Translations under genes and position numbers: made by a program
The notes under the pieces: model-generated
Database searches by the model: none
The model's input: the letters and a program-made list of their open reading frames with translations, nothing else
What the model was told of the DNA's origin: nothing
Part shown: positions 4,871 through 41,162 of the stretch, in pieces
How the letters are laid out: each line of letters starts with the position of its first letter
Numbering within the stretch: position 1 is the first letter of the stretch
From: a virus
Direction: 5' to 3' (one strand)
Length of the DNA stretch: 64,000 bases
Virus record (IMG/VR): IMGVR_UViG_3300020595_000010
Coordinates: 1 to 64,000 of that record

Positions 4871-5559
4871 TGATAAGAAACGGTAAACAATTTTATACAA
4901 AAGATGGAAAATTAATAGATATGTCAAGCTGGGATGTTAGTAAAGGACATCAAGATGTAGGTATTAATTATGGTTGGGAAGGTGCTATGGCTTGGGGAAA
5001 TTTAATCCATGATGAGTTAAATAAATATGGACCTGGTGTTCAACCCGGTGATGTTTATTTAGATTTAGGAGCAAATATAGGACTATCAGCTTTAAGAGCA
5101 GAATTATCAGGGGCCTCTAAATTATATTGCATTGAACCTGACCCAGGAGTATACGAGGCATTAGAAATGAATAAATCAGATAAATGGGAGAATTTTAATT
5201 TAGCAATTGCAGACTATGATGGAGAAATAGACATACCCAAATGGCCTGATTGGTGGGATAATGTTTCACGTCCTTGTATTACTTTAGAAAATTTTATGTA
5301 TTCTAATAAAATTACACATATTGATTATATGAAAGTTGATATTGAGGGACATGAAATTAAAATTTTACCCCAAATTCCAAAAGCTATATATGATAAAATT
5401 TCAAAAATTTTTATTGAATATCATGAGGATACTACAATTTCACCAGAAGATAGAGATAAAAAAAGATTAGAATTTGTAAAATCAATAATATCAAAAGGAT
5501 ATAATAATCACTTTGTTGAAGTTGGATATCATCAAAGTTTTATTTATATTTGGAAATAA
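4870..5559 (+). CDS. FkbM-family SAM-dependent methyltransferase
   Basis: The product has 229 residues. Motif I is YLDLGANIGL (SAM-binding loop DLGANIG at 65-71), motif II is YCIEPDP (acidic ribose ligand near 89), and a MKVDIEGHE strand follows, the hallmark of the FkbM family. FkbM enzymes O-methylate small molecules and sugars. The start overlaps the previous stop as TAATG. With the cupin upstream and glycosyltransferases elsewhere in the genome, methylation of a glycan is possible but unproven. Confidence 0.8.
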   Translation: MIRNGKQFYTKDGKLIDMSSWDVSKGHQDVGINYGWEGAMAWGNLIHDELNKYGPGVQPGDVYLDLGANIGLSALRAELSGASKLYCIEPDPGVYEALEMNKSDKWENFNLAIADYDGEIDIPKWPDWWDNVSRPCITLENFMYSNKITHIDYMKVDIEGHEIKILPQIPKAIYDKISKIFIEYHEDTTISPEDRDKKRLEFVKSIISKGYNNHFVEVGYHQSFIYIWK

Positions 5560-23916: not shown

Positions 23917-26457
23917 ATGGGTATAATATTAAGACAGAACAAAGGTTCCGAGTTAACATTCGCAGAAGTAGATGGCAATTTTCAGTCACTCTACTACTCT
24001 AGTTCTCTGTCTGGTACTGACCTTCAATTCTTTTTTGCAAGTAGTAGTGTAACACATAGTATAGATTTACAAAATGTTCCGGGATTTACAGGAGTTACAA
24101 TTGAAAGTGGAAGTACTTTAATAAGTAATGGTGTTCAAACTCTAAATTTTTTAGGAGATGGTATAGCTAGTATAACAAACTCCCCAACAACAAACCAAGT
24201 TGATATTAATATCCAAGGAGGTGGTGGTGGTGGTGGTTCTGGAACAGGAATATTCCAATTATTAGGAGCTACAGATATATATTTTGCAACCTCTTCATTA
24301 CAAGTTACAGCCAGTACTTACCAAGAATCTGAGTATACTACTATAGGCGTTACACAAAACCCAAACAATGATGGCACTGGAGGTAATGTAGCTAAGTATG
24401 GAATGATGTTTAGCCAATCAGTATGGCATTATACGGATAATGTAGGTTACCCAACATCAAAAGCATGGCAGACAGATTTAGAAGGATCGGTATTTAATAA
24501 CTATGACCAAAATACAGATACAGCAGAAATTTTAAGGTTTATTGCAACACAATTAAGTGCATCATCCCCAGATACTTCCCCAAATGCTCGTTATTATTCT
24601 GGTACTTCTGAAACAATTGCTTCAAATGGAACTGGTGGGGTTACGGGTTATGTACCCAATTCTACAACCGACCCCATTTTATTATATTTGCAAGGAAAAG
24701 GATGGGCTATAGCAGGACAAAGTGTATTTCAAGGAATTACCCCAATTTATAATAATTCAGGCTATAATATAAAATATACATCAGTTGCAGCTGGTTCGAC
24801 TACATGCCCCTCATCATCTTATGATCCTTCTTTCCAATTATTCAATTTAGGATTAGTAAGTTCTTCATTTACAACATCAGGTTCTTTAAGAAGAATTTTT
24901 GCTGATAACTCTGCAAAAACCCAAACAGTAGTAGATGAACAACAATATACTTTAGTAAAAACCCCACCACCTTTTAATACAACATCAGGTCAAACTATTG
25001 GGGCAATACCTACAGTAGGAGGATTAGATATAAAATATCAAGATGGTAAATTTGCTACGATTTTCCAAAATAATTTATATAATGGGGGTATTTCTTTCAC
25101 AACAAAAGAGGCTACAGGTTGGTATAGATTATCTTCATCAATAGGAGTACAATCAGGTTCTTCTAATTATACTACTTTTTATGATCAAGATACTGAAATA
25201 TTTTGGTCGGAAGTACAAACTAGTGATTTTTCTCAAACAGTAGGTTTTAATACTAGACAAAGTTCATCTTTATCAGCAACCTCAAGATCACTTTCAGGAG
25301 CTCCTTTATTATTAACATCAAATTTTAAAGAAGGATCTCATCTTACAGGATATTTCAATCCTTTATTTTCAGCACAACCTACATTTGCTTCAATTACAGA
25401 AACAGATTCTTTAGTAACCCCCTCTAACCCAACAGGTGGAACTAGAAATGGAAGTACAAATGGGGGTACTGTTCAAACTTCTAATTTTATATATTCTAGT
25501 GGGGGTGTTGTTAGAACTGTAGGAACTATACCAAGTCAAGGAGATGTTGTTTATTTGACAGCAAGTTTAGCATTTAATGCAGGATCAGGAGGGGCTGATA
25601 ATATCAACCAAACCGGATTTGGCACAACAACATTTATAACAACAACAAAAGGTAGAGAATTTGGAGGATCGTTAAATACCGTATTTACTAATACTTATGC
25701 TTATTTTGACCCAGGGGCATATGGACAAAATGTACTGTCAGGTTCTATGGGTTACTACGGTAGAGCTCAAGGATATGATGGTGGCACCTTAACTGGGGCT
25801 TCAAGTAATACAATATTTACAGAACAATTTTCAGGAGAAGATTATAGAATAGTTATTGATGATGATTTATTAACAGGATCCTATGCTAGTGGAACAAAAT
25901 TGGCAACGGGTGTGTATGCAGAGTATGTTCAACAACCCTTAGAATTACAAATAAAACCAGGATATTTAGTAACCCCAGGAGGAACATATGGTTATTGGAC
26001 TCCTGCAAACGCTGGTGCAAATACTTATCAATATTATTCAAGAGCATTTCAAAGAGATTTAACAACAGGAGCAAGTGATGTAACAGCTAGTTTTGGTGCA
26101 GCTTTAAATACGTGGGATAGCACAGCTAATGGGGTATCAGTAGCATTTTTGTTTTCAGGTTCGGGTGCACAAGCTTATACAAATCCAAGAATATTTGATC
26201 CTGCAACAACCGTAGGAGATGCTTTACAAATAGGTATAACAAATAATAATTTTACAAATCCATTTAGTGATCCAATTGATTTATATGCTTGTAAAACAGG
26301 TACAGTAAGAGGAAGTGGAGCTGGTACAAGTTATGAATTTCCTCTTTTAAATGGAAATGGTATGACTTTAGATCAGTTAACACAGGACTTTATAGTTATA
26401 ATAAGATATAAAGGAGACCCAGTTCCAGTAGAAGATATAGACATAACGATTACGTAA
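23917..26457 (+). CDS. Tail fibre-like structural protein
   Basis: The product has 846 residues, rich in Ser, Thr, Gly and Asn. The N-terminal RQNKGSELTFAEVDGNFQSL is a widespread phage fibre signature (LTxxEVDxNF). A Gly run (about 101-108) acts as a linker, after which the protein is repetitive beta structure without catalytic motifs. It has its own late-type motif and is followed 17 bases later by the giant fibre gene, so the two are probably co-expressed and may assemble on the same virion appendage. Confidence 0.7.
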   Translation: MGIILRQNKGSELTFAEVDGNFQSLYYSSSLSGTDLQFFFASSSVTHSIDLQNVPGFTGVTIESGSTLISNGVQTLNFLGDGIASITNSPTTNQVDINIQGGGGGGGSGTGIFQLLGATDIYFATSSLQVTASTYQESEYTTIGVTQNPNNDGTGGNVAKYGMMFSQSVWHYTDNVGYPTSKAWQTDLEGSVFNNYDQNTDTAEILRFIATQLSASSPDTSPNARYYSGTSETIASNGTGGVTGYVPNSTTDPILLYLQGKGWAIAGQSVFQGITPIYNNSGYNIKYTSVAAGSTTCPSSSYDPSFQLFNLGLVSSSFTTSGSLRRIFADNSAKTQTVVDEQQYTLVKTPPPFNTTSGQTIGAIPTVGGLDIKYQDGKFATIFQNNLYNGGISFTTKEATGWYRLSSSIGVQSGSSNYTTFYDQDTEIFWSEVQTSDFSQTVGFNTRQSSSLSATSRSLSGAPLLLTSNFKEGSHLTGYFNPLFSAQPTFASITETDSLVTPSNPTGGTRNGSTNGGTVQTSNFIYSSGGVVRTVGTIPSQGDVVYLTASLAFNAGSGGADNINQTGFGTTTFITTTKGREFGGSLNTVFTNTYAYFDPGAYGQNVLSGSMGYYGRAQGYDGGTLTGASSNTIFTEQFSGEDYRIVIDDDLLTGSYASGTKLATGVYAEYVQQPLELQIKPGYLVTPGGTYGYWTPANAGANTYQYYSRAFQRDLTTGASDVTASFGAALNTWDSTANGVSVAFLFSGSGAQAYTNPRIFDPATTVGDALQIGITNNNFTNPFSDPIDLYACKTGTVRGSGAGTSYEFPLLNGNGMTLDQLTQDFIVIIRYKGDPVPVEDIDITIT

Positions 26458-26474
26458 AAGAATAAAGATATAGA

Positions 26475-29400
26475 ATGGCATTAGATAAAATAAAAAAGTC
26501 GAATAGATTACTCCAGAGTAAGAGATATACAATGGAGCAGAGTACTGATGCTCAGGAGGCATTCACAAGAACTCTCGACATTAATGCTGGTGATGTTTAT
26601 ATAAGAGAAAATTTTGTTCCCTTAAATAATTTACCATATTCTGGTAGTGGACAGAACCAAGATACAATAGAATCAGGTTCAGCTTTAACAGCTGTTGATA
26701 TTGTAAAGTTTCACTTCCAACATCAATTAACACCATCATCGGTTGTTAATGGTAGTAAAACAGAAGTATTTTTCTTTATATCAAAATCAGCACATGATCC
26801 TACAATAGCTGTTACTCCTCAAATTATACAGGATGGACAACAAACAAACTTTTTATCACCAAAATATTCAGATGCTTCCTTAACATTTAAAAATACTGAG
26901 GATAATGTACCCGCAGGAAACGGTACACCTGGATATAATGTTACTGTTAGAGTAAATGGTACTGAACAAGATTCAGCTTTTTATCAATTTGATTATAAAA
27001 CAGGTGTAATACAATTCGTAGATAATTCAGTCTCACCATCAACCGGAGATACTGTCGTTTTATCAGCATACCAATATGTAGGTCCTACATTAGCAGATGG
27101 TGGTGTTGGTGGAGGTAATGCTTTTCCATTTTCAGGATCAGCACAAATAACAGGATCAGTTGGGGGTGTTCCAGGTGGATTCGCAGTAACCGGTAGTAGT
27201 ACATTTGATGTAAGTGGTACCGGAGATGATTTTTCTATAATATCAGCTCCAATACAAGATAGACCTGAATTATTAACATATAACCCTTCAACAGGTCTTA
27301 TAGGATATGTAAATGCAACTAGTGGTACTAGTGGATTTTCAGGTTCAAGTGGTACAGCAGGCCAATCTGGTACTTCAGGTACAAGTGGTTCATCAGGTTC
27401 AACAGGAACAAATGGTACTTCAGGAGAATCTGGTACTTCAGGAACATCAGGTGAAAGTGCTACTTCAGGTACATCAGGTACATCAGGTACTTCAGGTACA
27501 TCAGGTGAAAACGGAACAAACGGTACTTCAGGTTTAAGTGCAACAAGTGGTTCTTCAGGAACAAGTGGTACTTCAGGTGAATCAGGCACAGCAGGAACAA
27601 GCGGAGAAAGTGCAACATCAGGCTCAAGTGGTACTTCAGGTACTTCAGGTGAAAGCGGCACAGTAGGTACATCAGGAGAAAGTGCAACATCAGGCTCAAG
27701 TGGTACATCAGGTACTTCAGGAGCAGATGGAACAAGAGGTACTTCAGGTTCAAGTGGTACAAGTGGTACTTCAGGTACATCAGGTACTTCAGGAGCAGAT
27801 GGGACAAGAGGTACGTCAGGAGAAAGTGCAACATCCGGCTCATCAGGTACTAGTGGTACTTCAGGTGAATCAGGCACAGCAGGAACAAGCGGAGAAAGTG
27901 CAACATCAGGCTCAAGTGGTACTTCAGGTACTTCAGGAGCAGATGGAACACGCGGAACTTCAGGAGAAAGCGCTACTTCAGGATCAACAGGTACTTCAGG
28001 TACATCAGGTTCAAACGGAGTAGCAGGAGAAAGTGGCTTAAGTGCTACAAGTGGTACATCAGGAACCAGTGGTGCAGATGGTACATCAGGTACTTCAGGT
28101 TTAAGTGCAACAAGTGGTTCTTCAGGAACAAGTGGTACTTCAGGAGCAGATGGAACAAGAGGTACATCAGGAGAAAGTGCAACATCAGGCTCAAGTGGTA
28201 CTTCAGGTACTTCAGGAGAATCTGGTACTGCGGGAACATCAGGTGAAAGTAGTACAAGTGGTTCTTCAGGTACTAGTGGTACCTCAGGAGCAGATGGAAC
28301 ATCAGGTACATCAGGTAAAAGTGCAACAAGTGGTTCTACAGGAACAAATGGAACTTCAGGTTCAAATGGTGTTGCCGGAGAAAGTGGCTTAAGTGCTACA
28401 AGTGGTACATCAGGAACCAGTGGTGCAGATGGCACCTCAGGAACTTCAGGTGTAAGTGGTACAGCAGGTTCATCAGGAACTTCAGGTACTTCAGGAGCAG
28501 ATGGAACAAGAGGTACTTCAGGAGAAAGTGCAACATCCGGCTCATCAGGTACTAGTGGTACTTCAGGTGAATCAGGCACAGCAGGAACATCAGGAGAAAG
28601 TGAAACTTCAGGATCTTCAGGAACAAGCGGTACTTCAGGAGCAGATGGAACATCAGGTACATCAGGTTTAAGTGCAACAAGTGGTTCAACAGGAACAAAT
28701 GGTACAAGTGGCTCAAACGGAGTAGCAGGTGAAAGTGGCTTAAGTGCAACTTCAGGTACTTCAGGAACAAGTGGAGTTGATGGTACATCTGGAACAAACG
28801 GAAAAAGCGGAACAAGTGGTTCATCAGGAACAAGTGGTACTTCAGGAGCAGATGGAACAAACGGAACTTCAGGTTTAAGTGCAACTTCAGGATCATCAGG
28901 TACTTCAGGTACTTCAGGTACTTCAGGAGAATCTGGTACTGCAGGAACATCAGGTGAAAGTGCTACAAGTGGTTCAGCAGGTACATCAGGTACTTCAGGT
29001 GAAAGTGGAACAAATGGCACATCAGGAGAAAGTGCAACCTCAGGTTCAACAGGAACAAATGGTACATCAGGTTCAAATGGGGTAGCAGGAGAAAGTGGCC
29101 TAAGTGCAACTTCAGGAACCTCAGGAACTTCAGGTGTAGATGGCACCTCAGGAACTTCAGGTGTAAGTGGTACAGGAGGTTCATCAGGTACATCAGGTAC
29201 TTCAGGAGCAGATGGAACAAATGGTACAAGTGGTTTAAGTTCAACTTCAGGTTCAACAGGAACAAGCGGTACTTCAGGTGAATCAGGTACTGCAGGAACA
29301 TCAGGAGAAAGCGAAACTTCAGGATCTTCAGGAACAAGCGGTACCTCAGGAGCAGATGGAACATCAGGTACATCAGGTTTAAGTGCAACTTCAGGTTCAA

Positions 29401-32400
29401 CAGGTACTTCAGGTACATCAGGTTCAAATGGGGTAGCAGGTGAAAGTGGCTTAAGTGCAACTTCAGGAACTTCAGGAACTTCAGGAGCAGATGGAACTTC
29501 AGGTACAAGTGGCGAAAGTGGCGAAAGTGGCTCATCAGGTACTAGTGGTACTTCAGGAGCAGATGGAACATCAGGAACAAGTGGTCTAAGTGCAACTTCA
29601 GGTTCATCAGGTACATCAGGTACTTCAGGAGCAGAGGGAACAAAAGGAACTTCAGGAAAAAGCGGAAAAAGCGGAACTAGTGGTTCAGCAGGTACTTCAG
29701 GTACTTCAGGTGAAACAGGAACAAATGGTACATCAGGTTTAAGTGCAACAAGCGGTTCAACAGGAACAAATGGTACAAGTGGCTCAAATGGAGTAGCAGG
29801 GGAAAGCGGTTTAAGCGCAACTTCAGGTACTTCAGGAACTTCAGGTGTAGATGGTACATCAGGTACAAGTGGTGTAAGCGGAACTGGAGGTTCATCAGGA
29901 ACTTCAGGTACTTCAGGAGCAGATGGAACAGCAGGAACATCAGGTGAAAGTAGTACAAGTGGTTCTTCAGGTACTAGTGGTACTTCAGGTGAATCAGGTA
30001 CTGCAGGAACATCAGGAGAAAGTAAAACAAGTGGTTCATCAGGTACTTCAGGTACTTCAGGTGAAACTGGAACAAATGGTACATCAGGTAAAAGTGCAAC
30101 ATCAGGATCAACGGGTACTAATGGTACTTCAGGTTCAAACGGAGTAGCAGGTGAAAGTGGCTTAAGTGCAACTTCAGGTACTTCAGGAACTTCAGGAGTA
30201 GATGGAACTTCAGGTACAAGTGGCATTAGTGGTACAAGTGGCTCATCAGGTACATCAGGTACATCAGGAGCAGATGGAACAAACGGAACTTCAGGTTTAA
30301 GTGCAACTTCAGGATCAGGAGGTACTTCAGGTACTTCAGGAGCAGATGGAACAAACGGAACTTCAGGAAAAAGTGCAACTTCAGGATCATCAGGTACATC
30401 AGGTACTTCAGGTAAAACAGGAACAAACGGAACTTCAGGTAAATCAAATACTTCAGGTACATCAGGTACTTCAGGTTCCTCAGGTACTAATGGTACAAGA
30501 GGTTTATCAGGTAAATCAAATACTTCAGGTACATCAGGTACTTCAGGTTCGACAGGTACTTCAGGTACATCAGGTGAATCAGGCACAGCAGGAACAAGCG
30601 GAGAAAGTGCAACTTCAGGTTCGACAGGTACTTCAGGTACATCAGGTTCAAATGGAGTAGCAGGTGAAAGTGGCTTAAGTGCAACTTCAGGAACTTCAGG
30701 AACTTCAGGTGTAGATGGCACCTCAGGAACTTCAGGTGTAAGTGCAACAAGCGGTTCATCAGGTACTTCAGGTACAAGTGGTGCTGATGGTACAGCAGGA
30801 ACATCAGGTGAAAGTAATTTAAGTGGTACATCAGGTACATCTGGTACATCAGGTACATCAGGTTCAAGAGGTACTTCAGGTACTTCAGGCGAAAATGGTA
30901 CATCAGGTACAAGTGGTGTAAGTGCAACAAGTGGTTCAGCAGGTACATCAGGTACTTCAGGTGAAACCGGAACAAATGGTACGTCAGGTTTAAGTGGTAA
31001 AAGTGGTACTTCAGGTTCAGCAGGTACTTCAGGTACATCAGGTAAATCAGGTAAAAACGGCACAGCAGGAACAAGTGGTAAAAGTTCAACTTCAGGATCA
31101 GCAGGTACAAATGGTACTTCAGGTAAAAATGGAACAGCAGGAACAAGTGGTAAATCAGGAACTTCAGGTTCAACAGGAACAAATGGTACATCAGGTTCAA
31201 ATGGGGTAGCAGGAGAAAGTGGCCTAAGTGCAACTTCAGGAACCTCAGGAACTTCAGGTGTAGATGGTACTTCAGGTACAAGTGGTGAAAGTGGAGGAAG
31301 TGGTTCATCCGGTACTAGCGGTACTTCAGGAACAGACGGAACAAATGGAACAAAAGGTTCAAGTGGAAATAGTGCAACATCAGGTTCATCAGGTACATCA
31401 GGTACATCAGGTGAAAGTGGAACTTCAGGAACCTCAGGTTTAAGTTCAACTTCAGGAAGTTCAGGTACTTCAGGTACAAGTGGTAAATCAGGAAAAGATG
31501 GTACTGCTGGTACATCAGGTAAATCAAATACTTCAGGAAGTTCAGGTACTTCAGGTACATCAGGTACATCAGGTGAAAGTGGAACTTCAGGAACCTCAGG
31601 TTTAAGTTCAACTTCAGGATCAAGTGGTACTTCAGGTACAAGTGGTAAAAATGGAACAGCAGGAACAAGTGGTAAATCAAATACATCAGGAACAACAGGT
31701 ACTTCAGGTACAAGTGGTTCAAACGGAGTGGCAGGAGAAAGTGGCCTAAGTGCAACTTCAGGAACCTCAGGAACTTCAGGTGTAGATGGAACTTCAGGCA
31801 CATCAGGTTTAAGTGGTACTGCAGGTTCAAGTGGTACAGCAGGTACTTCAGGTAAATCAGGAAAAGATGGCACTTCAGGTACATCAGGCAAATCAGGTAC
31901 TTCAGGATCAGCAGGTACAAATGGTACTTCAGGTAAAAGTTCAACTTCAGGTACCTCAGGTTTAAGTTCAACTTCAGGAAGTTCAGGAACTTCAGGTACT
32001 TCAGGAGCAGATGGAACAGCAGGAACCTCAGGTGAAAGTAATTTAAGTGGTACATCAGGTACATCAGGTACATCAGGTACATCAGGATCAAGGGGTACTT
32101 CAGGTACTTCCGGTAAAAATGGAACAGCAGGAACCTCAGGTTTAAGTTCAACTTCAGGATCAGCAGGTACAGCAGGTACTTCCGGTAAAAGTGGAACAGC
32201 AGGTACAAGCGGTAAATCAAATACATCAGGTACATCAGGTACTTCAGGATCATCAGGTACTAATGGTACAAGAGGTTTATCAGGTCAATCAAATACCTCA
32301 GGTACATCAGGTTCTTCGGGTTCAACAGGTACAGCAGGTACTTCCGGTAAAAGTGGAGTAGCAGGTACAAGTGGTAAAAGTTCAACTTCAGGAACAACAG

Positions 32401-35400
32401 GTACTTCGGGTACAAGTGGCTCAAACGGAGTAGCAGGTGAAAGTGGTTTAAGCGCAACTTCAGGTACTTCAGGAACGAGTGGAGTTGATGGTACATCAGG
32501 TACAAGTGGTGTAAGTGCAACAAGTGGTTCAGCAGGTACATCAGGTACTTCAGGTAAATCAGGAGCAGATGGAACAGCAGGTACTTCAGGTAAAAGTGCA
32601 ACTTCAGGATCAGGAGGTACATCAGGTACAAGCGGTAAAAACGGAACAGCAGGAACCTCAGGTAAATCTAATACTTCAGGAAGTTCAGGTACAAATGGTA
32701 CTTCAGGTAAAAATGGAACAGCAGGAACCTCAGGTAAATCAAATACTTCAGGAACATCAGGTACTTCGGGATCATCAGGTACTAACGGTACAAGAGGCCT
32801 ATCAGGTCAATCAAATACCTCAGGTACATCAGGTTCTTCAGGTTCAACGGGTACGGCAGGTACAAGCGGTAAATCAGGAGCAGATGGAACAGCAGGAACT
32901 TCAGGTGTATCAAATACTTCAGGTTCTACAGGTACTTCAGGTAAGTCAGGAGCAGATGGAACCGCAGGAACCTCAGGTAAATCTAATACTTCAGGATCAG
33001 GAGGTACTTCAGGTACTTCAGGTAAATCAGGAGCAGATGGAACAGCAGGAACTTCAGGTAAATCAAATACTTCAGGTTCTACAGGTACAAGTGGTACTTC
33101 CGGTAAAAGTGGAACAGCAGGTACAAGCGGTAAATCAAATACTTCAGGTACATCAGGTACTTCAGGATCATCAGGTACTAATGGTACAAGAGGCCTATCA
33201 GGTCAATCAAATACCTCAGGTACATCAGGTTCTTCGGGTTCAACAGGTACAGCAGGTACAAGCGGTAAATCAGGAAAAGATGGTACTGCGGGTACTTCAG
33301 GTGTATCAAATACTTCAGGTTCTACAGGTACTTCAGGTAAATCAGGAGCAGATGGAACAGCAGGAACATCAGGTAAAAGTTCAACTTCAGGATCAGCAGG
33401 TACTTCAGGTAAATCAGGAGCAGATGGAACAGCAGGAACCTCAGGTAAATCAAATACATCAGGATCATCAGGTACATCAGGATCATCAGGTATAGATGGG
33501 GGTAGTGGTGAAAGTGGCGAAAGCGCTACAAGTGGATCATCAGGTACTTCAGGTACTTCAGGTAAAAATGGTACTGCTGGAACTTCAGGTGTATCAAATA
33601 CTTCAGGAAGTTCAGGTACAAATGGTACTTCAGGTAAAAATGGAACAGCAGGAACAAGTGGTAAATCAAACACTTCAGGTACATCAGGTACTTCGGGTTC
33701 CTCGGGTACTAATGGTACAAGAGGCCTATCAGGTCAATCAAATACCTCAGGTACCTCAGGTACATCAGGTTCTTCAGGTTCAACAGGTACGGCAGGTACA
33801 AGCGGTAAATCAGGAAAAGATGGAACAGCCGGAACATCAGGTAAAAGTGCAACTTCAGGATCAGGAGGTACTTCAGGTACTTCAGGTAAGTCAGGAGAAG
33901 ATGGAACAGCAGGTACTTCAGGTAAAAGTGCAACTTCAGGATCAGGAGGTACATCAGGTACTTCAGGTAAAAATGGAACAGCAGGAACAAGTGGTAAATC
34001 AAACACTTCAGGAACATCCGGTACTTCAGGTTCCTCAGGTACTAACGGTACAAGAGGCCTATCAGGTCAATCAAATACCTCAGGTACCTCAGGTACATCA
34101 GGTTCTTCAGGTTCAACGGGTACAGCAGGTACTTCAGGTAAATCAGGAGCAGATGGAACAGCAGGAACATCAGGTAAATCTAATACTTCAGGTTCTACAG
34201 GTACTTCAGGTAAGTCAGGAGCAGATGGAACAGCAGGTACTTCAGGTGTATCAAATACTTCAGGATCAGCAGGTACTTCAGGTAAATCAGGAGCAGATGG
34301 AACAGCAGGTACTTCAGGTGTATCAAATACTTCAGGATCAGCAGGTACTTCAGGTAAATCAGGAGCAGATGGAACAGCAGGAACCTCAGGTAAATCAAAC
34401 ACTTCAGGTTCTACAGGTACTTCAGGTACTTCAGGTAAATCAGGAGCAGATGGAACAGCAGGAACTTCAGGTAAATCAAATACTTCAGGTTCAACGGGTA
34501 CGGCAGGTACAAGCGGTAAATCAGGAGCAGATGGAACAGCAGGAACATCAGGTAAATCTAATACTTCAGGATCAGCAGGTACTTCAGGTAAATCAGGAGC
34601 AGATGGAACAGCAGGAACCTCAGGTAAAAGTGCAACTTCAGGATCAGGAGGTACTTCAGGTACAAGCGGTAAAAACGGAACAGCAGGTACGTCAGGTACT
34701 TCAGGATCATCAGGTACAACTGGTTCAAGTGGTGTAGGTGGTGCTGGTGGTGTTTCAGGTGGATCAGGTACATCTGGTACATCAGGAAAAGATGGTACTT
34801 CAGGATCATCAGGTACATCAGGTACATCAGGTACTTCAGGTACTTCAGGTAAAAATGGTACAAGTGGTACATCAGGTATAAACGGTGCCTCAGGAGCGAG
34901 TGGAACACCTTTAGAGGTTTGGGTTGATGATAATACATCATTAGATTATGCTGCAAATATTAAGATAAATGGAGCAAATTATACACAAGCATCACCATTT
35001 ACATTAAATACAGATTTTTCATTAGGTATTACAAACCCATTCCAAATAGGTAAAAACCAACCAGACTTAACTAATACAAGTGCAATTAATGGTACAGGAT
35101 TTATTGAATATCTAATCCCAGGTGCAGATGGTTTTACTGGGGAATTTTATACTGGTGGGGGGAATGCAGGTGGAGTAACTCAATTTGAATTAGTAGCTTT
35201 AAACAGTGCTGGTAATTGGGATGAAGCAGATGCTGATTTATCATCAACAAAGAATTTATTGGGTGTTGCATATAAGGCAACCGGAGTATTGGTTGATGTT
35301 ATATTAAGAGGTATGATTAAATCTAAGACTTTTAGTTTTACTGTTGGAGCACCAGTTTATGTTTCAAGAACACCTGGGGGTTTCACACAATCATTAACAG

Positions 35401-35498
35401 GATTTGTTACTGGTGATTATGTAAGATTAGTAGGACATTCCATAGAAACTAATGTTTTATATTTCAACCCAGAACCAACATGGATCTTAATTTCATAA
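26475..35498 (+). CDS. Giant collagen-like fibre protein, 3007 residues
   Basis: An N-terminal domain (1-283) with beta-rich and Ser/Gly segments leads into 2529 residues (284-2812) made of consecutive three-residue units of Gly-X-Y type, mostly GTS, GSS, GES, GKS, GAD and GTA. Proline is absent. A C-terminal globular domain (2813-3007) contains LLGVAYKATGVLVDVILRG and FTVGAPVYVS, a beta-rich domain often found after such repeats in phage fibres. The protein is probably a very long trimeric fibre or whisker. Ser and Thr fill most X and Y positions, so it offers well over a thousand potential O-glycosylation sites. Three glycosyltransferase genes follow one small gene downstream. The frame is continuous over 9 kb. 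Confidence 0.85.
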   Translation: MALDKIKKSNRLLQSKRYTMEQSTDAQEAFTRTLDINAGDVYIRENFVPLNNLPYSGSGQNQDTIESGSALTAVDIVKFHFQHQLTPSSVVNGSKTEVFFFISKSAHDPTIAVTPQIIQDGQQTNFLSPKYSDASLTFKNTEDNVPAGNGTPGYNVTVRVNGTEQDSAFYQFDYKTGVIQFVDNSVSPSTGDTVVLSAYQYVGPTLADGGVGGGNAFPFSGSAQITGSVGGVPGGFAVTGSSTFDVSGTGDDFSIISAPIQDRPELLTYNPSTGLIGYVNATSGTSGFSGSSGTAGQSGTSGTSGSSGSTGTNGTSGESGTSGTSGESATSGTSGTSGTSGTSGENGTNGTSGLSATSGSSGTSGTSGESGTAGTSGESATSGSSGTSGTSGESGTVGTSGESATSGSSGTSGTSGADGTRGTSGSSGTSGTSGTSGTSGADGTRGTSGESATSGSSGTSGTSGESGTAGTSGESATSGSSGTSGTSGADGTRGTSGESATSGSTGTSGTSGSNGVAGESGLSATSGTSGTSGADGTSGTSGLSATSGSSGTSGTSGADGTRGTSGESATSGSSGTSGTSGESGTAGTSGESSTSGSSGTSGTSGADGTSGTSGKSATSGSTGTNGTSGSNGVAGESGLSATSGTSGTSGADGTSGTSGVSGTAGSSGTSGTSGADGTRGTSGESATSGSSGTSGTSGESGTAGTSGESETSGSSGTSGTSGADGTSGTSGLSATSGSTGTNGTSGSNGVAGESGLSATSGTSGTSGVDGTSGTNGKSGTSGSSGTSGTSGADGTNGTSGLSATSGSSGTSGTSGTSGESGTAGTSGESATSGSAGTSGTSGESGTNGTSGESATSGSTGTNGTSGSNGVAGESGLSATSGTSGTSGVDGTSGTSGVSGTGGSSGTSGTSGADGTNGTSGLSSTSGSTGTSGTSGESGTAGTSGESETSGSSGTSGTSGADGTSGTSGLSATSGSTGTSGTSGSNGVAGESGLSATSGTSGTSGADGTSGTSGESGESGSSGTSGTSGADGTSGTSGLSATSGSSGTSGTSGAEGTKGTSGKSGKSGTSGSAGTSGTSGETGTNGTSGLSATSGSTGTNGTSGSNGVAGESGLSATSGTSGTSGVDGTSGTSGVSGTGGSSGTSGTSGADGTAGTSGESSTSGSSGTSGTSGESGTAGTSGESKTSGSSGTSGTSGETGTNGTSGKSATSGSTGTNGTSGSNGVAGESGLSATSGTSGTSGVDGTSGTSGISGTSGSSGTSGTSGADGTNGTSGLSATSGSGGTSGTSGADGTNGTSGKSATSGSSGTSGTSGKTGTNGTSGKSNTSGTSGTSGSSGTNGTRGLSGKSNTSGTSGTSGSTGTSGTSGESGTAGTSGESATSGSTGTSGTSGSNGVAGESGLSATSGTSGTSGVDGTSGTSGVSATSGSSGTSGTSGADGTAGTSGESNLSGTSGTSGTSGTSGSRGTSGTSGENGTSGTSGVSATSGSAGTSGTSGETGTNGTSGLSGKSGTSGSAGTSGTSGKSGKNGTAGTSGKSSTSGSAGTNGTSGKNGTAGTSGKSGTSGSTGTNGTSGSNGVAGESGLSATSGTSGTSGVDGTSGTSGESGGSGSSGTSGTSGTDGTNGTKGSSGNSATSGSSGTSGTSGESGTSGTSGLSSTSGSSGTSGTSGKSGKDGTAGTSGKSNTSGSSGTSGTSGTSGESGTSGTSGLSSTSGSSGTSGTSGKNGTAGTSGKSNTSGTTGTSGTSGSNGVAGESGLSATSGTSGTSGVDGTSGTSGLSGTAGSSGTAGTSGKSGKDGTSGTSGKSGTSGSAGTNGTSGKSSTSGTSGLSSTSGSSGTSGTSGADGTAGTSGESNLSGTSGTSGTSGTSGSRGTSGTSGKNGTAGTSGLSSTSGSAGTAGTSGKSGTAGTSGKSNTSGTSGTSGSSGTNGTRGLSGQSNTSGTSGSSGSTGTAGTSGKSGVAGTSGKSSTSGTTGTSGTSGSNGVAGESGLSATSGTSGTSGVDGTSGTSGVSATSGSAGTSGTSGKSGADGTAGTSGKSATSGSGGTSGTSGKNGTAGTSGKSNTSGSSGTNGTSGKNGTAGTSGKSNTSGTSGTSGSSGTNGTRGLSGQSNTSGTSGSSGSTGTAGTSGKSGADGTAGTSGVSNTSGSTGTSGKSGADGTAGTSGKSNTSGSGGTSGTSGKSGADGTAGTSGKSNTSGSTGTSGTSGKSGTAGTSGKSNTSGTSGTSGSSGTNGTRGLSGQSNTSGTSGSSGSTGTAGTSGKSGKDGTAGTSGVSNTSGSTGTSGKSGADGTAGTSGKSSTSGSAGTSGKSGADGTAGTSGKSNTSGSSGTSGSSGIDGGSGESGESATSGSSGTSGTSGKNGTAGTSGVSNTSGSSGTNGTSGKNGTAGTSGKSNTSGTSGTSGSSGTNGTRGLSGQSNTSGTSGTSGSSGSTGTAGTSGKSGKDGTAGTSGKSATSGSGGTSGTSGKSGEDGTAGTSGKSATSGSGGTSGTSGKNGTAGTSGKSNTSGTSGTSGSSGTNGTRGLSGQSNTSGTSGTSGSSGSTGTAGTSGKSGADGTAGTSGKSNTSGSTGTSGKSGADGTAGTSGVSNTSGSAGTSGKSGADGTAGTSGVSNTSGSAGTSGKSGADGTAGTSGKSNTSGSTGTSGTSGKSGADGTAGTSGKSNTSGSTGTAGTSGKSGADGTAGTSGKSNTSGSAGTSGKSGADGTAGTSGKSATSGSGGTSGTSGKNGTAGTSGTSGSSGTTGSSGVGGAGGVSGGSGTSGTSGKDGTSGSSGTSGTSGTSGTSGKNGTSGTSGINGASGASGTPLEVWVDDNTSLDYAANIKINGANYTQASPFTLNTDFSLGITNPFQIGKNQPDLTNTSAINGTGFIEYLIPGADGFTGEFYTGGGNAGGVTQFELVALNSAGNWDEADADLSSTKNLLGVAYKATGVLVDVILRGMIKSKTFSFTVGAPVYVSRTPGGFTQSLTGFVTGDYVRLVGHSIETNVLYFNPEPTWILIS
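27324..34910 (+). repeat. 843 tandem 9-bp Gly-X-Y units with higher-order repeats
   Basis: The block is 7587 bases, exactly 843 units of 9 bases. Both ends and eleven internal landmarks checked are in one 9-base register. Roughly every eighth unit has Ala, Asn, Ser, Glu or Lys in place of Gly (ATS, NTS, STS). A GSNGVAGESGLSATSG signature occurs at least 11 times (28008 to 32418), at first every 351 or 360 bases. A second signature (GTNGTRGLSG followed by K or Q) recurs at least six times between about 30480 and 34070. Confidence 0.9.
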
Positions 35499-35502
35499 AA
35501 AT

Positions 35503-36231
35503 ATGCCTCAAGTAAATTTAGCCCCATATACTACAAACAGCTCTAACTATGCTTTAGGTAATATTAGAAGAACGGGTGTAGGTTCCTGGACTTCTATTAG
35601 AACAGGCACACCAGTTTCAGGAAATGTGTCTCAAACAGGTAATTCTACTAAAAGTATTGGTGTTGCTTGGACTGGAGGTAGTAGAGGATCATATAGCTTA
35701 TATAGAAATTATATATGGTATGATGTAACAGCCTACCAAAGCGTTTTAATAACTTCAGCAGAATTAACTTGTCCTACAACGGCAGGGGTAACTGCTTTAG
35801 CACTTCCAGTAATAGCAGTAGATAGTAGTACTGCTTTTAGTAATAATTCAAACACAACATTAAGTTTAAGTCAATTTCTTTCTACTTCTTTTGTAGCTTA
35901 TAGTAATTCTACAAATTGGGCACAAACCACAGGTTTCCAACAAATAACCCTAAATAGTTCAGCAATAGTAGCAATACAAAATGGAAATAATTTTGGAGTT
36001 GGTATTATAGACCATAATTATGATTTTCAAAATGTTCAACCCTCAGGTATTGGATTTGATGGTTTTTATTTAGGTGATATGTCAAATGCAACACAAAGAT
36101 CAAGATGGACATTAACTTTAAATTACATAGCAGGATGGTCAGCCGGAGACATGAATGGAGTGGCAAGTAGTGACATGGGGGAAGTTAATGGTGTAGCTAT
36201 AGCAGACATAAGTGAAATTAATGGTATTTAA
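35503..36231 (+). CDS. Fibre-associated beta-rich protein
   Basis: The product has 242 residues and starts 5 bases after the giant fibre stop. It is predicted to be a beta-sandwich of about 200 residues (WTSIRTGTP, SLYRNYIWYDVTAYQ, ITSAELTCP, WTLTLNYIAGW). The end consists of short NGV-type repeats (DMNGVASSDMGEVNGVAIAD, then ISEINGI). Such repeats end many marine phage adhesins. It may be the receptor-binding tip or an assembly partner of the giant fibre (inference from adjacency). Confidence 0.55.
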   Translation: MPQVNLAPYTTNSSNYALGNIRRTGVGSWTSIRTGTPVSGNVSQTGNSTKSIGVAWTGGSRGSYSLYRNYIWYDVTAYQSVLITSAELTCPTTAGVTALALPVIAVDSSTAFSNNSNTTLSLSQFLSTSFVAYSNSTNWAQTTGFQQITLNSSAIVAIQNGNNFGVGIIDHNYDFQNVQPSGIGFDGFYLGDMSNATQRSRWTLTLNYIAGWSAGDMNGVASSDMGEVNGVAIADISEINGI

Positions 36232-36254
36232 CAATAGTTTGGATATGTAATTAA

Positions 36255-36263
36255 TATTTATTA
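36255..36263 (+). promoter_or_regulatory. Variant late motif TATTTATTA
   Basis: TATTTATTA, one base off the common motif, lies 31 bases before the glycosyltransferase operon ATG at 36294. The same variant precedes the sheath gene. Confidence 0.35.
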
Positions 36264-36293
36264 TATTGTCAAGTAGTTTTAAAAAATAGTTAT

Positions 36294-39005
36294 ATGAAGA
36301 AAATCTTATTTATAGCGCCTCATCTTTCAACAGGAGGACTCCCACAATATTTAACTAAAAAAATTGAACTTATTAAAGATGAGTTTGAAGTATATGTAGT
36401 AGAATGGGTAGATTGTACTGGGGGGAAATTAGTTGTAACCAAAAATAAAATATTAGAATTAGTAGATAATAATAAATTTTTTACACTTGAAGAAGATAAA
36501 AGTGAATTATTTAATATTATAGATAGGATTACACCAGACATTATTCATTTAGAAGAAATTCCTGAGTATTTTATGGATGATGATATAGCTCGAAAGTTAT
36601 ATGATGTAAATAGAAGTTATTTTTTAGTAGAAACATCACATGATTCTTCTATGGATACAGACACTAAAATATTCTCACCAGATAAGTTTATGTTTGTGTC
36701 AAACTGGCAAATAGAACAGTATAAAAACATAGATATACCTAAAATACTGGTAGAATACCCAATTGAATATATCCCCAGACCTAATAGAGAAAATGCGTTA
36801 AAACGCTTAAATCTCGACCCATCAAAAAAACATATATTACATATAGGTTTATTTACTTCTAGAAAAAACCAAAAAGAATTTTTTGAATATGCTGAAGCAT
36901 TACCTGAATATGAATTTCATAGTGTAGGAAACCAGGCAGATAATTTTAAATGGTATTGGGAACCTTTAATGGAAAATAAACCAACTAATTTAACTTGGTG
37001 GGGTGAACGAACTGATGTAAATAATTTCTATCAATCAATGGATTTATTTTTATTTACATCTAGAGGAAGTAAAAATGATAAAGAAACAATGCCTCTAGTA
37101 ATACGTGAAGCTTTATCTTATCAAATACCACAACTATTATATAATTTAGAAGTTTATCAAAATTATTTTGAAGACTATAATACAATTAATTATTTAGATT
37201 TTGCAGATTTTAATAAGAACGTTAAATTAATTAAAAATCAACTAAATACCCCTTCTATAATACCCCCAGATGTTGAAGAAAAAGAAGCATATGTGATTTG
37301 TACTTACCCAAATACACAAGCAGTAGTAGATACCACAATAGAATGTATTAAATCATTAAGAAAAAACAGTAATAGAAAAATAATTATATCCGCACATTGT
37401 CCTGTTCCAAAGGAATTACAGGGTATGGTTGATTATGTTTTTTATGAAAAAAATAATTTATTAACAAAACATACATTCTACTCAGGTTATTGGATGTATC
37501 ATGATCAATATGATACCCATGTAAATTTAAAAGGTGAAGATAATGATAGATATCACGGCCCAGCATGTTATACATCCTTCTATAACCCAGCAACATTTGC
37601 TAAAGAATTAGGGATTGAAAAATTATACTATATTAACTTTGATTATATTCTTAAAGATAGTAGTTATATAGATTATATATCTAAAAAATTAAATACTCAT
37701 GATACTTTCTTTGGTGAATATGAAGCACAAGAAGGTAAATGTTATTATACATATTTCTTTGCAGTCAAACCAGATGCAATTTTAAGACATTGTGATTTTA
37801 TAGAAACTGAAAATCAATATAATAGTCTTATGGATAAGTATGAGGCTGAATCTAATGGTATTGAAAATTTATATTATCATATATTTAAAAATAATATAAA
37901 TAACTATATTGAACCAAAAGAAAAATTTGAATCTGATGCTGAAAAGTATTTTGAATTTGAGGATTATTCAATGATTGAATATTATACTATACTTCCTACA
38001 GATGTAGATAATCATTTTTGTCCTTGGATAACTATTTCTAATGCTAAAGAAAGTAAGAATATCTACTATACAGTAGAAAAAAATGGTGAAGTTATCATTG
38101 ATAGATTGCTAGAAGTTAGGGGAAAATTTTCATTTTGGGATTTAGTAAAATATGATTTAGATGATAACATCATAGTTACATTTGATGTAAAAGATACTAA
38201 TACTGGAGAAAGTGTAAAATATCATAAATTTAATTTAAATAAAGATTATTTTTTAAATACAATGCCTAATAATGGTATGTTTAATTGGAAAGGAGATAGA
38301 AGTAGATACAACCCAAAAATTAAACTAATGCATTTAGTTACAGAACCAGATGTAAATGAAAAAGAAATAAGATCAGTAAAAAATATTAAAGAATTTTGTG
38401 AATCAACAGGTATAGAATACGAACAAAGAATAAATAAAATATGGACTGACTTACCCCCAATTGATACTTGTAATAGACCTGAAGATGTTCAAGACAAACC
38501 AGGATATTATAAACTAGCACCAGGACATTATGGGTGTTATAAAGCACACACAAATGCTATTATGTCTGAAAATAATAAAGATTATGATTATATTTTAATC
38601 TTTGAAGGGGATGTTATTGTTGATTCCCCATTTGATGAATTAAAACAAGCTTTAAATCGTTTTAGTAATCTATCTAAATCTAATAATCAGGACATTATAG
38701 GATTTGGCAACCCTTACCAAAATCGTAATTTAAATGGGCCTAAAATTGAAGACATATACACTAATATATCTCCATTTATACCTGCACAATCTTATTTAAT
38801 AAATAAAAATAAATTACAACTTATTCAAGATAAAATTAAAAATACAAAATGGGATGCTTTTGATATGTGGGTATGTAATGTAGCTAAATTAAAAGTAGGA
38901 ACAGCAGAAAAAATTTATACTAAACATCTACCAGGATTTAGTATAATTGAGCAAGAAATAAAAACAACAGACGAAAATAGTCCTTTAATATACGCTGGAG
39001 AATGA
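36294..39005 (+). CDS. Multidomain glycosyltransferase (GT4-like + GT-A-like + GT25-like)
   Basis: The product has 903 residues. Domain 1 (1-320) is a GT-B fold of GT4 type: LFIAPHLSTGGLPQYL start, HIGLFTSRKNQ, and E264-x7-E272. Domain 2 (about 330-560) starts AYVICTYPNTQAVVDTTIECI and resembles a GT-A nucleotide-sugar domain. Domain 3 (about 680-903) has GHYGCYKAHTNAI and YILIFEGDV, the GxxGCxxSH and EDD-type motifs of GT25, a family that includes LPS galactosyltransferases and collagen galactosyltransferases. The TGA overlaps the next ATG by 4 bases. Proposed target: the giant fibre. Confidence 0.72.
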   Translation: MKKILFIAPHLSTGGLPQYLTKKIELIKDEFEVYVVEWVDCTGGKLVVTKNKILELVDNNKFFTLEEDKSELFNIIDRITPDIIHLEEIPEYFMDDDIARKLYDVNRSYFLVETSHDSSMDTDTKIFSPDKFMFVSNWQIEQYKNIDIPKILVEYPIEYIPRPNRENALKRLNLDPSKKHILHIGLFTSRKNQKEFFEYAEALPEYEFHSVGNQADNFKWYWEPLMENKPTNLTWWGERTDVNNFYQSMDLFLFTSRGSKNDKETMPLVIREALSYQIPQLLYNLEVYQNYFEDYNTINYLDFADFNKNVKLIKNQLNTPSIIPPDVEEKEAYVICTYPNTQAVVDTTIECIKSLRKNSNRKIIISAHCPVPKELQGMVDYVFYEKNNLLTKHTFYSGYWMYHDQYDTHVNLKGEDNDRYHGPACYTSFYNPATFAKELGIEKLYYINFDYILKDSSYIDYISKKLNTHDTFFGEYEAQEGKCYYTYFFAVKPDAILRHCDFIETENQYNSLMDKYEAESNGIENLYYHIFKNNINNYIEPKEKFESDAEKYFEFEDYSMIEYYTILPTDVDNHFCPWITISNAKESKNIYYTVEKNGEVIIDRLLEVRGKFSFWDLVKYDLDDNIIVTFDVKDTNTGESVKYHKFNLNKDYFLNTMPNNGMFNWKGDRSRYNPKIKLMHLVTEPDVNEKEIRSVKNIKEFCESTGIEYEQRINKIWTDLPPIDTCNRPEDVQDKPGYYKLAPGHYGCYKAHTNAIMSENNKDYDYILIFEGDVIVDSPFDELKQALNRFSNLSKSNNQDIIGFGNPYQNRNLNGPKIEDIYTNISPFIPAQSYLINKNKLQLIQDKIKNTKWDAFDMWVCNVAKLKVGTAEKIYTKHLPGFSIIEQEIKTTDENSPLIYAGE

Positions 39006-39958
39006 AAATATGCCATGTAGACCCAGCTTGTGGGTTAGATATCCCACCAAAAAATTGGGGAGCAATTGAAAAAATTATTTGGGAATTTATAAATAATCAA
39101 AAATTACTAGGCCATGAATCTACCTACAAATTATCTTCTCATATTAATCTTGGAGAATTTGATATTGTACATTGTCATGTAGCTAATTTAGCAATTGGTT
39201 TACAAGAAAGAAATATACCCTATATATTCCAACTTCATGACCACCATGCATTTCATTATGGTAAAGACTCACATATATTTAAAGAAAATTTAAAAGCTAT
39301 AGAAGGATCACTTTTAACCTTACTACCAGGTAAATTTTTAGTTGATTATTTTAACCACCCCAAAGCACAATATTTTTCTCATGGGGTTAATGTTAATGAA
39401 TTTTATCCTTCACCTAACCCAAATCCTATAAAAATAACAAACCCCAAACTGTTGATGGTTGCAGCTAATGGTTTAGCTGGTGATAAGGGTTATGATAGAA
39501 AAGGATTTAAATATGGATTAGCTTTAGCAGCAAAACATAATTTAGATATAACCATAGCAGGTCCAAACTTTAATAAAGAATTTTTTAATCAACATTTAGA
39601 AATGTTTAATTATCCAAAATTAAACTTAGTCTTTGATACACCCAACAATAAATTATTAGAATTATATCACAAACATGATATTTTTATTCACCCTACAATG
39701 CTAGAAGCAGGCCACCCAAATTTAACTATGATTGAAGCCGCAGCTGCTGGTTTACCTATAATAGCAAATTGGGAATATGAAACAGATTTTCATGGTGCTT
39801 GGAGATCACCACGTGATATATTTCACATGGAAGTAGGGTTAAAAGATATAATAAATAACTATGACTATTATAAAGTTAGAGCAGTAGCTACTGGAAAAGA
39901 ATTAAGCTGGAAAAACAGAACAAAAGATTTATTAGAAATTTATAAAAATTTTATATAA
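39002..39958 (+). CDS. Glycosyltransferase, GT4-like
   Basis: The product has 318 residues with the GT-B fold. The N-terminal MKICHVDPACGLDIPPKNWGAIEK carries the donor/acceptor loop, YFSHGVNVNEFYP the central linker motif, and EAGHPNLTMIEAAAAGLP the acidic nucleotide-sugar-binding motif of retaining GT4 enzymes. Its start overlaps the preceding stop (ATGA) and the next gene begins 1 base after its stop, so the three transferases are translated as one unit. Donor sugar unknown. Confidence 0.8.
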   Translation: MKICHVDPACGLDIPPKNWGAIEKIIWEFINNQKLLGHESTYKLSSHINLGEFDIVHCHVANLAIGLQERNIPYIFQLHDHHAFHYGKDSHIFKENLKAIEGSLLTLLPGKFLVDYFNHPKAQYFSHGVNVNEFYPSPNPNPIKITNPKLLMVAANGLAGDKGYDRKGFKYGLALAAKHNLDITIAGPNFNKEFFNQHLEMFNYPKLNLVFDTPNNKLLELYHKHDIFIHPTMLEAGHPNLTMIEAAAAGLPIIANWEYETDFHGAWRSPRDIFHMEVGLKDIINNYDYYKVRAVATGKELSWKNRTKDLLEIYKNFI

Positions 39959-39959
39959 T

Positions 39960-41162
39960 ATGAAAGAAATTTTAATCCAAGAATATAATAATTTATCTAA
40001 ATTACTTATTAAACCAAAACCTCAATCTAACTTTTACCACATTAACTTTATTAATGGGGCTAAATTAGAAATTACAGGTAAAATAGATAAAAAATATAAC
40101 ATCCAATTTTACGACCAAAATACATTAGAATTACTTTTTGAAAGTGAAATTACAAATAATATGTGGACTAAATTTAACAAAACATATTATATAAATTATA
40201 ATATTAAAGTAATAGATTTAGAAAATAATACAGTTGTTTTTGAACATAAATTTAATGCAAAAAACAAAAGAGTTTATATTCATTTTGCCTCAAAAGCCTT
40301 AGGGGATACTATAGCATGGTTTCCATTTGCTGAAGAGTTTAGAAAAAAGCACCAATGTGAATTAATTGTTTCTACTTTCCATAACAGTATGTTTAAGGAA
40401 AACTATCCAAACATTAAATTTATAACTCCTGGAGAAGAACAATTTGACTTATATGCTATGTATGAAGTTGGGTGGCATTATAATGAAGATGAAAAAATAG
40501 ATTATAATAAAAATATATCAGATTTTAGAAAACATGGTTTACAAAAATGTAGTGGTGAAATTTTAGGAGTTAACCAATCAGAAATTAAACCAAAACTAAC
40601 ATTCAAAAATACAGGATCTACAATAGAAGGAAAATATGTCGTTATAGCACCCCATGGGTCGGCACATGCTAAGTATTGGAATTATAAAGGAGGGTGGCAA
40701 ACAATAATAGATTATTTAAATAATAAAGGTTATAAAGTAGTAATGATAACACAAGAATTATTAGGAGACAAATGGCATGATTCTAAATTAGGAGGAACTT
40801 TAACGGGGGTTATTGATAAAACTGGAGATTACCCTTTAAGTGAAAGAGCTAATGATATGTTAAATGCTAAAGCTTTTATTGGTATTGGAAGTGGGTTAAG
40901 TTGGTTAGCTTGGGCTTTAAAAACCCCTGTAGTAATGATATCAGGATTTAGTGAAGCTTATAGTGAATTTGAAGATTGTGAAAGAATATCATCACCTAAA
41001 AATAAATGTTCTGGATGTTTTAATAGAGTAAGATTAGATGCAGGAGATTGGGAATGGTGTCCTGATCATAAGGATACAGATAGAATGTTTGAATGTACTA
41101 AATCAATAACACCAGATACAGTAATTGCTGCTATAAACCATCAATTAGAAAAATCTCTTTGA
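39960..41162 (+). CDS. Autotransporter-heptosyltransferase-like O-glycosyltransferase
   Basis: The product has 400 residues. ALGDTIAWFPF (113-123) and PHGSAHAKYWNYKGGW (231-246) match the bacterial autotransporter heptosyltransferases (BAHT; TibC, Aah), which are GT9-related. Four Cys at 350, 353, 367 and 379, in CSGC, WCPDH and FECTK, reproduce the C-x2-C, WCP, FEC iron-finger of that family. Known members attach heptose to Ser in repetitive autotransporter adhesins. A beta-rich N-terminal region (1-105) precedes the catalytic part. Here the obvious repetitive Ser/Thr substrate is the giant fibre. Confidence 0.8.
   Translation: MKEILIQEYNNLSKLLIKPKPQSNFYHINFINGAKLEITGKIDKKYNIQFYDQNTLELLFESEITNNMWTKFNKTYYINYNIKVIDLENNTVVFEHKFNAKNKRVYIHFASKALGDTIAWFPFAEEFRKKHQCELIVSTFHNSMFKENYPNIKFITPGEEQFDLYAMYEVGWHYNEDEKIDYNKNISDFRKHGLQKCSGEILGVNQSEIKPKLTFKNTGSTIEGKYVVIAPHGSAHAKYWNYKGGWQTIIDYLNNKGYKVVMITQELLGDKWHDSKLGGTLTGVIDKTGDYPLSERANDMLNAKAFIGIGSGLSWLAWALKTPVVMISGFSEAYSEFEDCERISSPKNKCSGCFNRVRLDAGDWEWCPDHKDTDRMFECTKSITPDTVIAAINHQLEKSL

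Follow-up and report, generated by a model that had tools for sequence, protein, structure and literature searches.

A candidate phage-encoded glycosylation module beside a giant Ser/Thr-rich collagen-like tail fibre in an uncultured T4-like virus

TibC, in which D110 is catalytic and Cys 339/342/358/370 coordinate iron, belongs to the BAHT family, whose members are described as acting on protein (PMC4358343). In Clostridioides difficile spores, SgtA O-glycosylates Thr, and in test peptides Ser too, inside the Gly-X-Y triplets of collagen-like BclA3, and the two genes adjoin each other (PMC7157674). Mycobacteriophages, according to Freeman et al. 2023 as cited in PMC12619734, decorate their own virion proteins, with glycans on capsid and tail tube C-termini. 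Phage tail-region glycosyltransferases are usually interpreted as modifiers of host lipopolysaccharide (LPS) or of DNA. Here we analysed bases 1–64000 (the window, i.e. the whole stretch of 64,000 nucleotides) of the 163,571-base IMG/VR virus record IMGVR_UViG_3300020595_000010, at which a giant collagen-like tail fibre gene is followed by a small gene and by three glycosyltransferase genes, the last one encoding a BAHT (Table 1). Judging from the sequence comparisons below, we consider it probable that these transferases form an O-glycosylation module acting on the phage's own fibre, as an initial annotation of the same DNA had suggested. The arrangement resembles SgtA–BclA3 in its neighbouring transferase and collagen-like genes, although SgtA is a cellular GT-A enzyme adding GlcNAc, with GPT acceptor triplets (PMC7157674). 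It resembles the mycobacteriophage case in that a phage would decorate its own virion, although here the proposed acceptor is a fibre array and the first enzyme would be a BAHT.

The open reading frame (ORF) and the triplet count bear out the 3007-residue fibre with 2529 residues of Ser/Thr-filled Gly-X-Y units reported in the initial annotation. The array spans residues 284–2812 and comprises 843 triplets, with Gly at the first position in 758 and A (42), N (29), S (11), E (2) or K (1) in the other 85. T (493) and S (107) predominate at X, and S (608), along with T (30), at Y; GTS is the most frequent triplet (309/843). Ser and Thr together account for 49% of the array residues, and the whole array has one Pro; a rod so poor in Pro may form a triple helix or pack in another Gly-rich way. 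The fibre matched Pfam Collagen (E 1.2e-260) and several PHROG families of tail fibres or collagen-like tail proteins and, having both a collagen repeat and tail-fibre family matches, belongs by sequence to the phage collagen-like tail fibres. Since two further public contigs (L082 and L086) carry the same fibre of 843 triplets, the repeat is not an assembly accident. An antisense ORF of 1632 amino acids (aa) lying over the repeat (26993–31891) was rejected as a gene, being most likely a by-product of the repeat.

Table 1. Features of the fibre and transferase locus and of other sugar-related genes of the phage. Positions are those of the record, whose bases 1–64000 are the window.
Feature	Position	Strand	Basis
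Giant collagen-like tail fibre gene, 3007 aa	26475–35498	+	ORF, Pfam Collagen, PHROG tail fibre families
Fibre N-terminal domain	26475–27323	+	
Ser/Thr-rich Gly-X-Y array, presumed acceptor rod	27324–34910	+	Composition, tandem repeats
Fibre C-terminal domain	34911–35498	+	
242-aa gene between fibre and transferases, probably fibre-associated	35503–36231	+	ORF, homologues similarly placed in relatives
903-aa transferase: GT4-type GT-B (residues 1–323), GT-A, beta-rich stretch, C-terminal GT25-like GT-A (predicted)	36294–39005	+	Pfam, AlphaFold2, fold searches
GT4-family glycosyltransferase, 318 aa	39002–39958	+	Pfam PF00534, 33.1 bits (cut-off 26.4)
BAHT/TibC-family heptosyltransferase, 400 aa; Asp116, Cys350/353/367/379	39960–41162	+	TIGR04414, TibC phmmer, invariant residues
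FkbM-type methyltransferase, first	4870–5559	+	Pfam PF05050, 44 bits; synteny in relatives
FkbM methyltransferase, second	92456–93172		
Epimerase	99922–100995		
HldE-like heptose-7-phosphate kinase domain relative, 248 aa	106874–107620		NCBIfam best family
HldE-like heptose-1-phosphate adenylyltransferase domain relative	124418–124822		NCBIfam best family

The third transferase is by sequence a member of the BAHT family, as had been proposed. It scored 336 bits against the BAHT model TIGR04414 (curated cut-off 200) and 41 bits or less against LPS heptosyltransferase models. With phmmer, it matched TibC over nearly its full length (E 2.3e-63, residues 21–396; structures 4rap/4rb4), and D116, C350, C353, C367 and C379, which correspond with equal spacing to the catalytic Asp and the four iron-finger Cys of the TibC/AAH enzymes, are invariant among 37 aligned viral sequences, all of which matched TIGR04414 at E ≤1e-10. 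The N-terminal TibC beta-barrel domain (PF21129) reached 18.7 bits (cut-off 27), the TibC alignment starting at residue 21. As with TibC and AAH, the presumed acceptor is a repetitive Ser/Thr-rich surface protein; it differs in being the Gly-X-Y rod of a fibre, while that of TibC is a beta-helical autotransporter. Also unlike those enzymes, the phage BAHT is encoded together with a GT4 enzyme and a multi-domain transferase, and in some other phages the GT4 and the BAHT are fused. The ORF coordinates agree with the layout given earlier, in which the small gene precedes three transferase genes, the first two overlapping by 4 bases and the last two separated by 1 base, and all three transferase genes are under purifying selection (dN/dS 0.11–0.27, eight pairs).

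In the 903-aa enzyme, the model of residues 1–323 shows a GT4-type GT-B fold (VIA Z 19.2, root-mean-square deviation (rmsd) 3.9 Å, 282 residues aligned), and the fold matches of this GT4 domain include T4 alpha-glucosyltransferase structures (Z ~17) alongside many GT4 enzymes. The phage itself is, in our reading of its gene content, a T4-like myovirus, and this together with the T4 match could point to glycosylation of phage DNA in the T4 fashion. Such a role is highly improbable, as the T4 match is common to many GT4 enzymes, the transferase genes sit in the interval between fibre and sheath, and BAHT substrates are protein (PMC4358343).

Residues 325–903 were modelled separately with AlphaFold2 (mean pLDDT 87) and would, as we read the model, form two GT-A domains separated by a beta-rich stretch. 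The best named Foldseek match of this model was human COLGALT1 (9evj, E 1.6e-12), followed by LH3 (1.4e-8), both GT25 enzymes with, as here, a Gly-X-Y partner; however, the domain arrangement differs from that of COLGALT1 (rmsd ~20 Å across both domains), and the Z of 14.2 was a tie with GT8 glycogenin. Against a cut-off of 24, Pfam GT25 (PF01755) gave 21.6 bits for the full-length protein and 22.5 bits for its C-terminal 579 residues; at E ≤0.01 it matched 22 relatives out of 27 (best 1.6e-5). Profile searching of the C-terminal part against PDB sequences gave nothing useful, and phmmer of the whole protein returned one marginal match only, to HemD. Assignment to GT25, one of the types named in the initial annotation, is borderline and concerns the C-terminal part alone. 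Collagen galactosyltransferases use (hydroxy)lysine at Y of Gly-X-Y as their acceptor. With Lys occupying Y in just 2 of the 843 triplets, i.e. without a hydroxylysine-type acceptor, a strict collagen-galactosyltransferase role for the 903-aa enzyme was rejected.

We then compared the locus with its viral relatives. Scanning IMG/VR gave 217 stretches with relatives of the BAHT and 112 with relatives of the 903-aa enzyme, and the best 80 of each were kept. Requiring 1.5 kb or more ahead of the 903-aa gene left 42 non-redundant loci. In 36 of these, that gene is preceded by a Ser/Thr-rich Gly-X-Y frame whose end lies 57–1370 bases upstream, and the BAHT is present in 41 of the 42. By terminase comparison, two isolated phages come nearest: immuto of Flavobacterium (59% identity) and Mel-JY01 of Microcystis (51%). 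Mel-JY01 (PP395634.1) has a Ser/Thr array of 149 triplets within an open frame that stops at base 3049 and is annotated at its end alone, as a hypothetical protein; this frame is followed by a 'structural protein' gene, a small gene and a gene for a 1226-aa protein that combines GT4 with BAHT. GT4 and BAHT also form a single polypeptide in the 735-kb metagenomic phage LR756501.1, in which the array gene and the gene for a 903-aa enzyme relative are arranged head-to-head. The isolated phage immuto retains the fibre C-terminal domain (42% identity); we found no Gly-X-Y array in the 48-kb stretch covered, and neither a Ser/Thr array motif in the whole genome nor a BAHT. The initial annotation knew of no described phage with this combination. 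We likewise found no open-access paper describing it (subscription journals and preprints were outside the scope of the search), but many uncultured viruses have the combination, as does isolated Mel-JY01.

Two observations on these arrays may be added. In Mel-JY01, the minus-strand genes annotated at bases 1–2298 overlap the plus-strand array frame and are probably mis-annotated over the repeat. In LR756501.1, a four-triplet Ser/Thr Gly-X-Y motif matched 1439 times on the reverse strand and 7 times on the forward strand, which points to very large arrays besides the one adjacent to the BAHT.

An association independent of the transferases was examined by scanning viral contigs for DNA encoding GTSGTSG and asking for a BAHT anywhere in the array records. 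The scan gave at least 120 stretches, 80 of which were considered, and 54 of these 80 loci hold arrays. Fifty records were searched whole (45 with and 5 without arrays); of the nine array loci outside this search, eight are contigs of 4–12 kb that entered by tblastn alone and were BAHT-negative over their complete DNA, and L297 is the second stretch of an included contig. Among the matches listed, a BAHT was found in 21 of the 53 array records, two of these scoring 129 and 193 bits, less than the family cut-off, or in 20 of 52 when L235 (10.5 kb), which entered the set after its BAHT had already been seen, is left out. As a control, 49 of the 80 listed loci found with GPQGPQG, every contig at least 15 kb long, had a BAHT in none (0/49 among the matches listed; Fisher p 1.1e-7). 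The control arrays are rich in Pro and poor in Ser/Thr (medians 14% Pro and 9% Ser/Thr). Of the control stretches, 44 have a Gly-X-Y array with a net score of at least 8 and 34 an array of at least 15 triplets, and restricting the control to these 34 gave p 5e-6. When size was limited to 15–105 kb, the counts were 12/38 GTS records (4 of the 38 without an array) versus 0/49.

In a set anchored on the sheath gene, comprising 37 non-redundant rows with at least 5 kb upstream, the BAHT is present in 11 of 13 rows with an array Ser/Thr score of at least 0.6 (the exceptions being L195 and L415) versus 8 of 24 without such an array, three of the 8 (L174, L179 and L185) having the fibre cut by the end of the contig or stretch. 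At record level, the BAHT was found in 11/13 motif-present versus 4/13 motif-absent records (p 0.015), a table of 26 partly hand-picked records that is too selected to weigh. In five BAHT loci that were array-less in the fetched stretch, searching the whole record with the four-triplet Ser/Thr motif revealed 28 (L066), 6 (L093) and 41 (L043) matches, or one match each (L390 and L392); three loci (L354, L398 and L408) remained without a Ser/Thr array after this search.

Interruptions of the array, with Gly replaced mostly by A, R or N and TS mostly next, recur every 8 triplets, i.e. 24 residues. This spacing accounts for 690 of 1742 interruptions in 47 non-redundant arrays (that of the window and 46 others). 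As a BAHT recognition signal the interruption was rejected. It is treated as clade-specific, since most of the arrays that go with a BAHT in other phages lack it, and L274 shows it in a 27-kb record devoid of a BAHT.

The pairing extends to bacteria. Scanning bacterial genomes with the viral BAHT alignment, a query that favours virus-like BAHTs, gave 27 loci, two of which (L567 and L568) are phage-like, since the 903-aa gene is also there. The remaining 25 belong by record title to several Methylococcaceae, Polaromonas, various Gammaproteobacteria and others; one (L579) also partly matches the 903-aa enzyme and GT4. A Ser/Thr Gly-X-Y array lies within 1.2 kb of the BAHT in 11 of the 25, versus none of 30 LPS heptosyltransferase I-family loci in these genomes (p 3.7e-5). 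For this control family, 9 of the 24 matching genomes scored above its cut-off, and the control stretches are 2.4–4.0 kb long, with ~1.5 kb on each side. A class-wide bacterial search found TIGR04414 at E ≤0.001 in 113 of 369 genomes, and above the cut-off in two, both already positive.

These results bear on whether the transferases instead alter the host surface (LPS or O-chain), for example in a superinfection block, and lie near the fibre since the T4-like tail region is a hypervariable cargo site. A host-surface role is the interpretation published for pelagimyophage tail-region transferases and rfaE (PMC7029224), the names in Pfam and NCBIfam place LPS enzymes within the GT9, GT4 and GT25 families, and further sugar genes are found elsewhere in the phage genome. 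However, the BAHT model outscores the LPS heptosyltransferase models by far, and a host-surface role predicts neither an array link favouring Ser/Thr over Pro/Gln nor the bacterial pairing. We regard this main alternative as rather unlikely because the array link is specific. The self-glycosylated fibre is supported comparatively, by the conserved BAHT residues, the synteny in 36 of 42 loci, the Ser/Thr-array link and the bacterial pairing.

For the donor, both HldE-like parts, kinase and adenylyltransferase, occur together in this phage and in five other BAHT phages (G102, G004, G023, G024 and G104), and the kinase keeps GAGD, which we take to be its kinase motif. The first sugar on the fibre is probably a heptose. 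Further genes may act on the glycan: the interval between GT4 and BAHT holds a homologue of the second FkbM in 16 loci (not de-duplicated; both genes occur in 143 loci). Homologues of the first, a possible glycan O-methyltransferase, are found ~0.7 kb ahead of the BAHT in 8 loci or more, and in three loci (L030, L100 and L101) an epimerase homologue, 74–81% identical, is beside the BAHT or at most 2 kb away. Such placement suggests an O-methylated glycan of several sugars.

Several findings count against glycosylation of the fibre by these enzymes. The BAHT acceptors described in PMC4358343 are beta-helical autotransporters and not Gly-X-Y rods. The GTS and GPQ sets differ in phage lineage, and an array is found within 5 kb of the BAHT in just 10 of the 20 regions examined. 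Comparison of related genomes, proposed in the initial annotation as a check of whether the transferases occur only with the long repeat, linked the BAHT to Ser/Thr arrays, but 4 of 15 BAHT records checked have no Ser/Thr array motif, three of them 11–32 kb long (G113, G116 and G117) and one 636 kb (LR756504), a situation that the initial annotation had named as refuting. Conversely, arrays occur without a BAHT in 32 of the 53 GTS records among the matches listed, many of them fragments, and also in G109 and G112, so the BAHT is dispensable for such arrays in general. The HldE-like genes fall below the curated cut-offs (125 versus 345 bits and 102 versus 181.5), though these are still their best-matching families, and the kinase has 248 aa against a model of 315 positions. 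The adenylyltransferase matched in 9 of 26 BAHT-positive records (two being near-copies of the window phage) versus none of 7 without a BAHT, numbers too small to establish a BAHT link. No GmhA was found in the 163,571-base record, and a complete phage-encoded heptose pathway was rejected on this ground. Separately, the motif-less 636-kb uncultured phage (LR756504.1, L230) carries, in addition to its BAHT, a GmhA-type phosphoheptose isomerase above the cut-off.

Another alternative is that virion proteins are glycosylated, with another tail protein as the main acceptor. Proteins neighbouring the array (35503–36231, 41184–43136 and 23917–26457) contain 22–24% Ser/Thr, and the stretch fetched for the BAHT locus L392 lacks a Gly-X-Y array, but its next structural gene (8818–9678) holds Ser-rich repeats of the SSSYASS type as a possible alternative acceptor. 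The array itself, however, reaches about twice that content, and the partner common to distant phages and bacteria is the array and not these other proteins, which makes a different main acceptor decidedly unlikely.

Taking the fibre array as the acceptor, we infer the following scheme for which residues are modified, with which sugars, in what order and to what benefit. Fibre chains would be produced in the host cytoplasm, where the BAHT, perhaps as a TibC-like ring, would transfer heptose from ADP-heptose onto many Ser/Thr of the rod. The GT4 enzyme and the 903-aa enzyme, with its three predicted catalytic domains, would extend this sugar or add others, and the phage's FkbM methyltransferases and epimerases would modify the sugars. 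The HldE-domain relatives may boost ADP-heptose, with the host providing the earlier intermediates. The glycans could stabilise and protect the very long rod, which is unable to use hydroxyproline because it has almost no proline. Stiffening of the fibre, concealment from proteases and mimicry of host glycans are the benefits that the initial annotation put forward as possible.

A broader proposal, which we hold to be evenly balanced between right and wrong, is that a widespread and hitherto unrecognised branch of the TibC family in phages and bacteria uses almost Pro-free Ser/Thr Gly-X-Y rods of the GTS type as acceptors, with sugar replacing hydroxyproline as the stabiliser. Phages would carry the kit for donor synthesis, first transfer, extension and O-methylation, and relatives with Pro-containing arrays would add prolyl-hydroxylase-like oxygenases. 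If the pairing is true, many transferases of uncultured viruses become testable virion-modifying enzymes, BAHT acceptors reach beyond autotransporters, and there is a possible route for stabilising very long Pro-free collagen-like rods.

Arrays with at least 3% Pro were found in 5 of 50 non-redundant array loci. The three with a BAHT (L066, L093 and L408) also carry a 2OG-Fe(II) oxygenase of the prolyl-hydroxylase type, that of L066 being PF13640, and the two without (L373 and L404) have none, nor do the Pro-poor loci (0/45); the oxygenase queries were taken from L066 and L408 themselves, so there are few independent positive cases. The L066 and L093 records hold Ser/Thr arrays too. Do related phages carry a combined kit for collagen-like hydroxylation and glycosylation? 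Where the array contains Pro, oxygenase genes lie beside the same transferases, at L066 (6505–7092), L093 (8732–9325), L408 (3899–4513), L043 and L390.

The 242-aa gene between the fibre and the transferases matched none of the Pfam, NCBIfam and PHROG families, and its homologues occupy the equivalent place in two relatives (L013 and L030). Elsewhere in the record, at bases 87200–89135 (L155), two neighbouring genes look by eye like GroES and GroEL.

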